Shown here: positions 9,255 to 42,362 of the stretch, piece after piece
Numbering within the stretch: the first letter of the stretch is position 1
Layout: the number at the start of each line of letters is the position of its first letter
Origin: Giesbergeria anulus
GTDB lineage: Bacteria > Pseudomonadota > Gammaproteobacteria > Burkholderiales > Burkholderiaceae_C
Length of the DNA stretch: 64,000 nt
Assembly (NCBI RefSeq): GCF_900111115.1
Contig: NZ_FOGD01000004.1
Location: 62,001 to 126,000, forward strand
Direction of reading: 5' to 3'
Position numbers and translations under genes: made by a program
The notes under the pieces: model-generated
What the model was told of the DNA's origin: nothing
The model's input: the letters and a program-made list of their open reading frames with translations, nothing else
The model's database searches: none

Positions 9255-9331
9255 TGGTGCGGCTGGCAGGAATCGAACCCACGACCCCTTGGTTCGTAGC
9301 CAAGTACTCTATCCAGCTGAGCTACAGCCGC
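9255..9331 (-). tRNA. tRNA-Arg (anticodon ACG)
   Basis: 77 nt on the minus strand. The acceptor stem GCGGCTG/CAGCCGC, a D-arm with AGCTCAGCTGGAT, the anticodon loop CTACGAA giving anticodon ACG, the T-arm GGTTCGATTCC and an encoded 3' CCA are all present. ACG arginine tRNAs are normally deaminated to ICG by TadA and read CGU, CGC and CGA codons. Confidence 0.97.
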
Positions 9332-12237: not shown

Positions 12238-12789
12238 ATGGCCGGGCCACTGACGCAAGCCTCGCAAACGGCACAGTCCTTTGCCGACATCAGCTATTTG
12301 CTGCGCGAATGTGTTGCCGATGAGCAATTGCGCCTGCTGCGTGACAACATCAGCGCGCTGGCTAAGGCTCTGGACTTGGCAGTGGGAGCCAGACGCCACC
12401 GCCGCGACGCCAATACCATTGCACGGCGCGCCGGCGCGCTAGCCCAAGAACTGCGCCAGCACCAAGCCGTGCTTTGCAGCCCAGAGGCGGGCTGGAAAAC
12501 CATGTACGAATGGGCCAGTTACCAGCGCGCCCTGCGCGAACTGGCCCAAGCCGTGCAACGCTGGCGCGAAGCCTTGGCCCAGCGCAGTAGCCACGAGGGG
12601 GCCGCTTTTGACCAGATGGAGCAATGGGCATGGCGCGCCTTGGGCGAGGGCCTGTTGCTGCTGGATATGTACCAGCAAGGGGCAGGCTTGGTGATGAGTT
12701 CTACCCCAGAAGAGCCCCCCTCACCGCCATCGCCACAACGATCATCATGGTGGCAGGCCGTGCTACAACGCTGGCAGCGTTGGCATTAG
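12238..12789 (+). CDS. Hypothetical protein, mostly helical, cytosolic
   Basis: 183 residues with a GGAG ribosome-binding site nine bases before the ATG. I do not recognise the family. It is rich in Ala, Leu, Gln, Arg and Trp, with long predicted helices (about residues 15-65 and 85-140) that could form coiled coils. A Pro/Ser-rich hinge (about 155-168) separates a Trp-rich end. No signal peptide or membrane segment is evident. It lies 51 bases after tldD and just before the aroG leader region. Reading-frame length and start context support a real gene; function is unknown. Confidence 0.65.
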   Translation: MAGPLTQASQTAQSFADISYLLRECVADEQLRLLRDNISALAKALDLAVGARRHRRDANTIARRAGALAQELRQHQAVLCSPEAGWKTMYEWASYQRALRELAQAVQRWREALAQRSSHEGAAFDQMEQWAWRALGEGLLLLDMYQQGAGLVMSSTPEEPPSPPSPQRSSWWQAVLQRWQRWH

Positions 12790-12818
12790 CTGTTGCTGCA
12801 ATGCACCACAGACTGTGC

Positions 12819-12824
12819 TACATT
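12819..12824 (+). promoter_or_regulatory. Extended -10 element for the aroG leader transcript
   Basis: TACATT preceded by TGC gives an extended -10 (TGnTAnnnT). It ends 8 bases before the leader ATG, so transcription would start at or within a base or two of that ATG. The -35 is weak; TTGCTG at 12793-12798 has a 20-base spacer. The same arrangement occurs before the trpE leader candidate. Confidence 0.5.
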
Positions 12825-12832
12825 GCTTTCCC

Positions 12833-12889
12833 ATGTCGATAGCACGCGCTTTTTATTTTTGGTCCTATTTCTCGATCCCGGGCGGATGA
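12833..12889 (+). CDS. Aromatic-rich leader peptide of aroG
   Basis: A short reading frame of 18 codons encodes MSIARAFYFWSYFSIPGG. Six of seven consecutive residues (FYFWSYF) are Phe, Tyr or Trp, the amino acids made from the DAHP synthase pathway encoded just downstream. The stop is followed by a Rho-independent terminator at 12928-12959. The last two Gly codons contain GGCGG (12881-12885), complementary to the CCGCC that forms the terminator's left arm. This is the layout of ribosome-mediated attenuation: a ribosome stalled on the aromatic codons leaves GGCGG free to block the terminator, while one that reaches the stop covers it. No Shine-Dalgarno site is visible and the predicted transcript starts near the ATG. 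Confidence 0.8.
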   Translation: MSIARAFYFWSYFSIPGG

Positions 12890-12927
12890 GAGAGGCGAGC
12901 GCGCAAGCACCTAGACCCTTTTCACAC

Positions 12928-12959
12928 ACCGCCGCTGCTGCAAAGCCCGGCGGTTTTTT
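12928..12959 (+). terminator. Attenuator terminator upstream of aroG
   Basis: A 6-bp GC stem CCGCCG (12929-12934) / CGGCGG (12948-12953), extendable by one A-T pair, is followed by six T residues and further T-rich sequence. It lies 39 bases after the leader-peptide stop and 45 bases before the aroG start. CCGGGC at 12878-12883 can pair with GCCCGG at 12945-12950, and GGCGG at 12881-12885 with CCGCC at 12929-12933, both giving competing antiterminator structures. Confidence 0.85.
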
Positions 12960-13003
12960 GTTTTCAAATCCCCACTTTGATCCATCTTAAAAGGAAGACA
13001 AGC

Positions 13004-14128
13004 ATGACTGCCCCCCAAGCCACCCCTGTCACTGAGCCCTGGTACCAGCACGTCGAGAAAACCAGCCAGACCGACGACGAACGTATCAAGGACATCATTG
13101 TGCTGCCCCCTCCCGAACACCTCATCCGTTTCTTCCCCATCCGGGGCACCGCCATTGAAACGTTGATTACGCAAACGCGCCAAAGCATCCACAACATCAT
13201 GGCAGGCACGGACGACCGCCTGCTGGTGATTATTGGCCCTTGCTCCATCCACGACCCGGCTGCCGCACTGGACTACGCCCGCCGCCTGCAAGTGGTGCGC
13301 GAGCAATACAAAGACACGCTAGAGATCGTGATGCGCGTTTACTTTGAAAAGCCACGCACCACGGTAGGCTGGAAGGGCCTGATCAACGACCCCTACCTCG
13401 ATGAAAGCTACCGCATTGACGAGGGCCTGCGCATGGCACGCCAGTTGCTCATCGACATTAACCGCTTGGGCGTGCCCGCTGGCAGCGAGTTTTTGGACGT
13501 GATCTCACCCCAATACATTGGCGATTTGATCAGCTGGGGCGCAATTGGTGCCCGCACCACCGAAAGCCAAGTCCACCGCGAACTGGCTTCGGGCTTGTCG
13601 GCACCGATTGGTTTTAAGAATGGCACCGATGGCAATATCCGCATTGCTACCGACGCCATCCAATCGGCCAGCCGAGGCCACCACTTCTTGTCCGTCCACA
13701 AAAACGGCCAAGTAGCGATTGTCGATACCGCAGGCAACCCCGACTGCCACGTTATTTTGCGCGGTGGCAAGGCCCCCAACTACGATGCCGCCAGCGTGGC
13801 TGCGGCCTGCAAAGACCTAGAAGCTGCCAAACTGCCCGCTACACTGATGGTCGATTGCAGCCATGCCAATAGCAGCAAACAGCACGAAAAGCAACGCGAC
13901 GTGGTGCGCGACATTGCCGCCCAACTGGCGGCAGGCTCGCACAGCGTTTTTGGTGTGATGATCGAGAGCCACATCAACGCAGGCGCACAAAAGTTTACCC
14001 CCGGCAAAGATGTACCCACTGCGCTGGAATACGGCAAGAGCATCACCGATGCCTGCTTGGGCTGGGATGACTCGGTGCAATCGTTGGCCGACTTGGCTGC
14101 TGCCGTGCAGGCACGCCGCACCCGCTGA
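13004..14128 (+). CDS. aroG: Class I 3-deoxy-7-phosphoheptulonate (DAHP) synthase
   Basis: 374 residues from the ATG with an AAGGAAG ribosome-binding site at 12991-12997. Class I AroF/G/H features: LLVIIGPCSIHDP, RVYFEKPRTTVGWKGL, the KNGTDG segment, the VILRGG motif and DCSHANSSK. It condenses phosphoenolpyruvate and erythrose 4-phosphate, the first committed step of aromatic amino acid synthesis, in the cytosol. Expression is probably attenuated through the upstream leader peptide. Which amino acid inhibits the enzyme (Phe, Tyr or Trp) cannot be read reliably. Confidence 0.95.
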   Translation: MTAPQATPVTEPWYQHVEKTSQTDDERIKDIIVLPPPEHLIRFFPIRGTAIETLITQTRQSIHNIMAGTDDRLLVIIGPCSIHDPAAALDYARRLQVVREQYKDTLEIVMRVYFEKPRTTVGWKGLINDPYLDESYRIDEGLRMARQLLIDINRLGVPAGSEFLDVISPQYIGDLISWGAIGARTTESQVHRELASGLSAPIGFKNGTDGNIRIATDAIQSASRGHHFLSVHKNGQVAIVDTAGNPDCHVILRGGKAPNYDAASVAAACKDLEAAKLPATLMVDCSHANSSKQHEKQRDVVRDIAAQLAAGSHSVFGVMIESHINAGAQKFTPGKDVPTALEYGKSITDACLGWDDSVQSLADLAAAVQARRTR

Positions 14129-41967: not shown

Positions 41968-42022
41968 GGTGTATATCCAGTGGCTGAAACCGTAATTTTA
42001 CGGGGCCACCGAAAAACAAAGT

Positions 42023-42362
42023 GTGAAGCACACCGATAAGCCGGATTCTGTGCACTGCGGTTACCCGCAGCGTGACCGCCATTACTCTGGGCCGGGGGTT
42101 GCCCACCCGGCTCGGTGCTACCTACCCGCCAGCTCTGCGGAACCACATCAACGCTGGCCTACTTGGTATTGCTGCGCGTAGAGATTGCCCGTTTCACCCC
42201 GACTGGTTTACCTTGCGGTACTCCCGTCAGACTCGTCTCTGTTGCTCTGATCCTCACCTTGCGGTGGGCAGCCGTTAGCTGCTACGCTGTCCTGTGCAGT
42301 CCGGACGTTCCTCCAGTGCTTGGTTTCCCAAATTGCACCAGCGGCGGTCTGGCGTGCTTCAC
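42023..42362 (-). ncRNA. rnpB: RNase P RNA (class A)
   Basis: About 340 nt on the minus strand. The P4-forming segment GAGGAACGTCCGGACTGCAC near the 5' end and its 3' partner ACAGAATCCGGCTTATCGG are present, with universal motifs such as GGTAAACC and GGGTGAAACGGGCAA. The ends were set by the P1 helix GTGAAGCAC (42354-42362 on minus) pairing with GTGCTTCAC (42023-42031 on minus). The RNA is the catalytic part of RNase P, which trims tRNA 5' leaders. Confidence 0.96.

Follow-up and report, generated by a model that had tools for sequence, protein, structure and literature searches.

The aroG gene of Giesbergeria anulus is preceded by an element which is most likely a ribosome-mediated transcription attenuator of this gene, and on the evidence of the sequence the probability of this reading is put at about 0.92. 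The attenuator is very probably real and widely conserved, and its mechanism is of a known kind. Its features are a conserved open reading frame rich in aromatic codons, a terminator, an antiterminator with covarying pairs, a pairing between strands 1 and 2 (hereafter 1:2, and likewise for the other helices), a particular geometry of codons and helices, and the gene context. The coordinates of all parts are collected in Table 1 and refer to the window, which is the whole stretch of 64,000 nt that was analysed. The reading frame, the aromatic codons, the stop codon and the terminator all lie where the first-pass annotation of this DNA had placed them. It had also named the downstream gene as a DAHP synthase gene, and this name agrees with the product, which matched TIGR00034 with 533.5 bits as well as PF00793 (NCBIfam, Pfam) and is thus a class I DAHP synthase; AAGGA is found at 12991-12995, just 5' of the aroG start. 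The genome search gave one AroG-type match and no match of a class II DAHP synthase in the Giesbergeria anulus genome.

Table 1. Parts of the putative aroG attenuator and its surroundings, in window positions
Feature	Position	Strand	Basis or remark
Extended -10 promoter box TGC-TACATT (putative)	12816-12824	+	Conserved box pattern upstream of leader start
Predicted transcription start	~12831-12833	+	Position relative to -10 box
Leader ORF MSIARAFYFWSYFSIPGG	12833-12889	+	18 codons; stop TGA 12887-12889
Aromatic sensor codons F-Y-F-W-S-Y-F	12851-12871	+	Leader translation
Predicted effective stalling window W-S-Y-F (last four sensor codons)	12860-12871	+	Codon position against strand 1
Strand 1, UUCUC, from last Phe codon onward	12869-12873	+	Pairs with 12888-12892
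Strand 2, antiterminator 5' arm GGCGG, inside end of peptide ORF	12881-12885	+	Conservation, covariation
Strand 2, 3' half GAGAG (anti-antiterminator arm)	12888-12892	+	114-row alignment
Strand 3, shared by terminator (5' arm) and antiterminator (3' arm, CCGCC 12929-12933)	12928-12934	+	Fold, alignment
Strand 4, terminator 3' arm CGGCGGU	12948-12954	+	96.4% of terminator cells paired
Intrinsic terminator U-run; predicted 3' end of short RNA	12954-12959	+	Sequence, terminator scan
aroG, class I DAHP synthase	13004-14128	+	TIGR00034, PF00793

Between tldD and the leader sits an ORF of 183 aa (12238-12789, plus strand), for which no Pfam or NCBIfam match was obtained; ORFs with similar-looking ends stop just 5' of the leader in a few relatives of the genus (L002, L011 and L012). 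Elsewhere in the window, Rfam recognised a bacterial RNase P RNA of class A (42021-42360, minus strand) and a tRNA (9258-9331, minus strand), both ordinary. No leader family of Rfam (release 15) was found in the window at the gathering cut-off, nor over 12750-13050 at E values up to 10. Counted by distinct stop codons, the whole window has 583 ORFs that start with ATG and encode 8-45 aa, 278 on the plus and 305 on the minus strand, and none of them but the aroG leader reached six aromatics within eight residues. When the 214-nt intergenic region was shuffled by dinucleotides, an ORF of this kind arose in 2 cases out of 5000, and a chance ORF as the origin of the leader was rejected on these two results. 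The fold statistics of the window itself were weak, the minimum free energy having a z-score of -1.16 and the terminator scan giving 2 sites vs 2.4 in shuffles, so that the proof of the fold rests on conservation.

Leader and terminator were present at 23 of the 25 orthologue loci of the genus, and the two others (L015 and L025) have too little upstream sequence; a 26th genus genome (G023) gave paralogue-like matches only. The genus alignment A1 (22 rows) was chosen by a pattern that includes TACATT and did not pick L009, L015 and L025, therefore A1 is no evidence for the -10 box. The wider survey covered the GTDB family of the Giesbergeria anulus genome with one genome per genus, and an aroG match was found in 119 of the 120 genera searched. 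After the weak best matches of G086, G092 and G127 had been left out, the leader was present in every one of the 116 genera analysed, and the terminator was recognised by pattern in 114 of them. In the remaining two (L192 and L218) a hairpin and a T-run are visible by eye, and for want of a terminator-pattern match they do not stand in the 114-row family alignment A2. A set of named relatives, including Acidovorax, Comamonas, Variovorax, Polaromonas, Hydrogenophaga, Rhodoferax, Limnohabitans, Aquabacterium, Rubrivivax and others, had both leader and terminator in 75 of 79 cases, a set that shares members with those of genus and family (L054 and L023 are an example) and thus depends on them. 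In this set L063 shows a leader but no match of the terminator pattern, both parts are absent at L101, L104 and L106, and the upstream sequence of L057 is too short to judge. The alignment of aroG upstream regions that the first-pass annotation had called for was thus run, and over the 114 family rows the aromatic codons are conserved and the antiterminator pairs covary.

Genes related to aroG also occur without the leader. L101, L104 and L256 are such relatives with 75-77% identity; L101 and L104 bear the name Polynucleobacter, the Polynucleobacter MAGs L086 and L096 carry the leader, and the leader was apparently lost or gained within this genus name. Paralogues without a leader are L027-L030, L106 and L226, and paralogue L026 has no upstream sequence by which to judge. 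L027-L030 belong to a second DAHP synthase paralogue of genus members, which is about 54-56% identical and has no aromatic leader. At least two matches were found in 22 of the 26 genus genomes searched, and for this reason a single DAHP synthase as the explanation of three-way sensing was set aside.

The strands in the 114-row alignment are UUCUC (strand 1), GGCGG followed by GAGAG (strand 2), CCGCC (strand 3) and the GGCGG before the U-run (strand 4). UUCUC:GAGAG (1:2) is paired in 94.2% of the cells and GGCGG:CCGCC (2:3) in 92.5%, with both-sided changes at three of the five pairs in each helix. Together the two helices have six double-change pairs, where the shuffles have 0.8, and a count of six was not reached by any of the 500 shuffles; the helices were named by hand and then counted, a procedure that leans towards them. 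RNAalifold on the same alignment returned the terminator alone, with neither 1:2 nor 2:3. When the partners were slid by 1-3 columns as a control, 43.2-64.0% of the cells were paired, and the slide by +3 columns gave 15 double-change cells vs 12 observed, a score of 0.062 vs 0.066 and 64.0% of cells paired. The compensatory pairs of the antiterminator are GACGG with CCGUC in five rows, and GACGA with CCGUC, AGCGG with CCGCU and GGCGA with UCGCC in one row each; G-U intermediates occur in four rows. Strand 4 is GGCGG in all of the compensatory rows but the GGCGA/UCGCC row, in which it is GGCGU and leaves the new U of strand 3 without a partner. As strand 4 does not follow strand 3 in these rows, the pressure comes from the 2:3 pairing. 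In L192, which stands outside the alignment, strands 2, 3 and 4 have changed in concert (AGCGG, CCGCU and AGCGG, respectively). In 17 of the 114 rows the set of five antiterminator pairs is incomplete, partly through a misalignment by one column. On the AroG tree, a quick tree from about 200 residues, the change of strand 2 takes three steps and that of strand 3 takes four. The terminator helix is nearly invariant, with a score of 0.035 vs 0.036 in shuffles, 96.4% of cells paired and two double-change pairs, a number that 19 of 500 shuffles reached as well. The UUCUC:GAGAG hairpin would complete an attenuator of the 1:2, 2:3, 3:4 design.

The GGCGG:CCGCC pairing had been proposed from the single sequence, and it is found at the proposed positions and is complete in 22/22 genus rows and 97/114 family rows. 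CCGGGC:GCCCGG, which had been proposed beside it, also exists in this DNA but is complete in just 3/22 genus rows and 1/114 family rows, and it was dropped as a pairing confined to this species and its closest relatives. Conservation, covariation and geometry lend strong support to the idea of a ribosome-mediated terminator/antiterminator switch as such. As to its design, terminator and antiterminator stand as first drawn, and the anti-antiterminator hairpin UUCUC:GAGAG and the predicted leaderless start had been overlooked. The GGCGG-type motif lies in frame 0 of the peptide in 88 leaders, in frame 2 in 20 and in frame 1 in 2; these 110-row counts, like the others below, are without L129, L148, L208 and L223, in which a search with four spellings of the motif had no match. 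Peptide ends vary between genera (GG, PAA, PAV, PAD, LAD etc.). On the AroG tree the motif has moved from one reading frame to another at least 18 times, therefore it is the RNA that is conserved and not the end of the peptide.

The aromatic clusters of the family contain 4-9 aromatics, six or more of them in 109/116 genera; Trp is included in 108/116 and all of F, W and Y lie within the cluster in 106/116. Among 110 leaders there are 93 whose last aromatic codon starts 12-15 nt 5' of the GGCGG-type motif. If the ribosome is taken to cover 12 nt, counted from the start of its A-site codon, the motif is left free by 755/765 aromatic codons vs 65/406 of the later non-aromatic codons; the aromatic codons would thus end about where a stalled ribosome still leaves GGCGG free. 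A ribosome halted on any of the four codons up to strand 1 would cover that strand as well; at these codons the commonest residues are Y (88), F (111), W (101) and F (101, each out of 114), and in 82 of the 114 leaders F, W and Y are all inside these four codons; in Giesbergeria anulus they are W-S-Y-F. Of the one-step codon variants, 24 of 26 remain aromatic at the Tyr codon and 7 of 7 at the first Phe codon; at the Trp codon the count is 0 of 2, and at the last Phe codon, where Ile is mostly found instead, it is 5 of 15.

Folding was predicted for 110 leaders. When a ribosome is placed at the penultimate aromatic codon and strand 4 is not yet made, 2:3 forms in 108 of them, and with no ribosome before strand 4 it is predicted in 38. 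Once strand 4 is present, only 6 leaders keep 2:3 as their fold of minimum energy, even behind a stalled ribosome, which means that the switch must be kinetic. The 1:2 hairpin is part of the minimum-energy fold in only 65 of the free leaders. Four or more bases of CCGCC were paired in 141 of 330 folds with shuffled upstream segments vs 110/110 with the real ones. The mechanism that we propose would run as follows. Transcription would start at the leader AUG or a few bases from it, and a ribosome would initiate directly at the 5' end of the transcript. When Phe-, Tyr- or Trp-tRNA is scarce, this ribosome would halt on the aromatic codons, with strand 1 covered and GGCGG free, and GGCGG could pair with CCGCC before strand 4 is made, so that the terminator would be blocked and aroG transcribed. 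With the tRNAs charged, the ribosome would reach the stop codon and cover strand 2, or the 1:2 hairpin would reform on its release; CCGCC would then pair with strand 4 and transcription would end near 12959. From the sequence of the leaders we infer these kinetics and the identity of the amino acids sensed, which would be all three aromatic ones.

The leader appears to begin its own transcript. A TACATT-like box ends 6-9 nt 5' of the leader start in 106/116 family genera, and three further genera fit this spacing once an earlier in-frame start 1 nt past the box is set aside. TGnTAnnnT stands 5-9 nt 5' of the start in 105/116 leaders vs 0/116 aroG starts, and Shine-Dalgarno matches of at least 4 are the reverse, with 2/116 leaders vs 96/116 aroG starts; none was recognised at the Giesbergeria anulus leader ORF. 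The box consensus was taken from 109/116 leaders aligned on the most TACATT-like hexamer with a bonus for TG, which leans towards that consensus, and the TGnTAnnnT pattern test is free of this lean. The leader start codon is ATG in 115 of the 116 genera and GTG in one, and the base preceding it is C or T in 108. A -10 box so close to the ATG, together with the lack of a Shine-Dalgarno sequence, points to a leaderless leader mRNA in the family. No conserved -35 was found at the leaders, and the two-hexamer promoter scan gave 0 promoters. Outside the family TGnTAnnnT was present in 23/70 leaders, or in 35/70 without the TG, and a Shine-Dalgarno sequence in 9/70; the leaders from other orders had TGnTAnnnT in 0/4. 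As the box pattern is sparser outside the family, the leaderless trait is well supported in the family only.

The range of the element was followed with a covariance model built from the 114 family rows and run on whole genomes with no protein information. It matched 84 of 299 genomes of the order with one match each, in 14 families, and 11 of the matches were in the own family. An aroG match is present at every one of the 84 loci, and at 81 of them the leader counts as aromatic by our own rule. No model match was obtained in 215 of the 299 genomes, a figure that counts genomes irrespective of whether aroG is present. The class gave 7 matches in 232 genomes, three in the family and four in two families outside the order, the latter four all 5' of aroG. 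One search in distant mode found no plasmid copy. According to whole-peptide counts, Phe and Tyr are the only aromatics in 8/9 leaders of family f98 and in 6/6 of f113, and all three are present in 11/11 of f116; most leaders of several families outside the own one are without Trp. Three loci of family f137 (L361, L365 and L367) have kept the RNA strands upstream of aroG with few aromatic codons and no aromatic cluster by that rule, and decay or an altered signal is possible there.

Nascent-peptide stalling in answer to a free amino acid is known from TnaC, and the aromatic-rich leader peptide might likewise arrest the ribosome on free amino acids, instead of the ribosome waiting at codons for charged tRNAs. 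The strong conservation of the peptide inside the genus and the near-fixed Y-F-W-F block in much of the family are what such an arrest would lead one to expect, but the order and number of the aromatics vary between families (FYFYFFGYL, FFFFFYFSY, HWFFFGFFL), the reading frame at the end of the peptide differs, and it is the content of aromatic codons and their distance to GGCGG that are kept. We consider this reading quite improbable. There is next to no chance that the hairpin is simply the ordinary terminator of ORF 12238-12789 and the leader ORF incidental to it. A terminator-like site does lie between both genes, about 139 nt past the end of that ORF, but a conserved -10-like box separates the ORF from the leader, the aromatic codons, the antiterminator and the spacing are conserved across genera, and the 84/84 order model matches adjoin aroG; the covariation of the antiterminator refutes an ordinary terminator as the sole explanation. 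Unlikely, though less so than either of these, is a further action of the leader peptide or of the terminated RNA in trans on other targets. Peptide ends that differ in frame and sequence between genera speak against a peptide-specific role, and yet a terminated and probably leaderless small mRNA would arise in rich conditions, and there is a precedent in peTrpL and rnTrpL of Sinorhizobium meliloti, as described in PMC7298713.

Attenuation of aroG by the translating ribosome may go further than a common leader in one respect, for which we would give even odds: the leader would be an OR gate. Shortage of Phe, Tyr or Trp would each halt the ribosome in the same window of four codons, typically Y-F-W-F and here W-S-Y-F, where it covers strand 1 and not GGCGG, and any one of them would turn on the DAHP synthase gene. 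The ORF of this gate would be leaderless, and its design old, being spread over 14 families of one order and two outside it, with some lineages lacking the Trp codon. No account of the Burkholderiales aroG element was found in openly licensed papers, and the text available of PMC5343134, PMC3110155, PMC2965389 and PMC4603805 holds no description of it. What is new in this element is its place, its range, the occurrence of all three aromatics among the codons of the predicted stalling window, and a start that is predicted to be leaderless. The usual model for the control of entry into aromatic biosynthesis is that of the DNA-level regulators of E. coli. If true, the present reading would give a defined control point for this entry in a large bacterial group, and a natural setting in which to test how a single leader combines the signals of three tRNAs and how attenuation works when the mRNA is leaderless. 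The covariance model of the element is a possible addition to Rfam.

The architecture of trpL and pheL consists of competing hairpins and a terminator behind a Shine-Dalgarno-led leader, and each of the two senses one amino acid. Both are leader attenuators of E. coli and are mentioned in PMC11802643. The aroG leader resembles them in having a short leader ORF with codons for the end products, competing hairpins and a terminator, whereas they serve other genes, answer to a single amino acid and have a Shine-Dalgarno sequence, and the aroG leader matches no Rfam leader family. Leader mRNAs that begin at the start codon have been described for trpL of Sinorhizobium meliloti and for leader peptides of Streptomyces lividans (PMC7298713 and PMC8079986, respectively). 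Those leaders concern Trp and Leu and stand before other genes and not before DAHP synthase, and the leaderless start is predicted here. Several candidate attenuators have been proposed before other DAHP synthase genes: uORFC-13-1 of Acholeplasma, with a Phe-coding U-run and a ribosome binding site before aroF (PMC8632094), aroF of E. coli and Shewanella, for which attenuation was proposed and which is listed as Tyr-tRNA sensing (PMC2659441, PMC8632094), and the DAHP synthase-tyrA operon of Vibrio, for which attenuation was proposed (PMC1173090). These candidates are from other lineages and are set beside the aroG leader by their descriptions. Compared by description, the nearest precedent is aroR-aroF of Corynebacterium glutamicum, of which Neshat 2014 is reportedly the primary paper. 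The Phe-Tyr-Phe leader aroR precedes the DAHP synthase gene aroF, attenuation was reported (PMC4046766, PMC11802643), and the leader is said to answer to Phe and not to Tyr (PMC11802643). Likened from such descriptions, the two systems share an aromatic leader peptide before a DAHP synthase gene; aroR is from a different phylum with no Trp mentioned, whereas the family leaders described here have 4-9 aromatics and include Trp in 108/116 genera.
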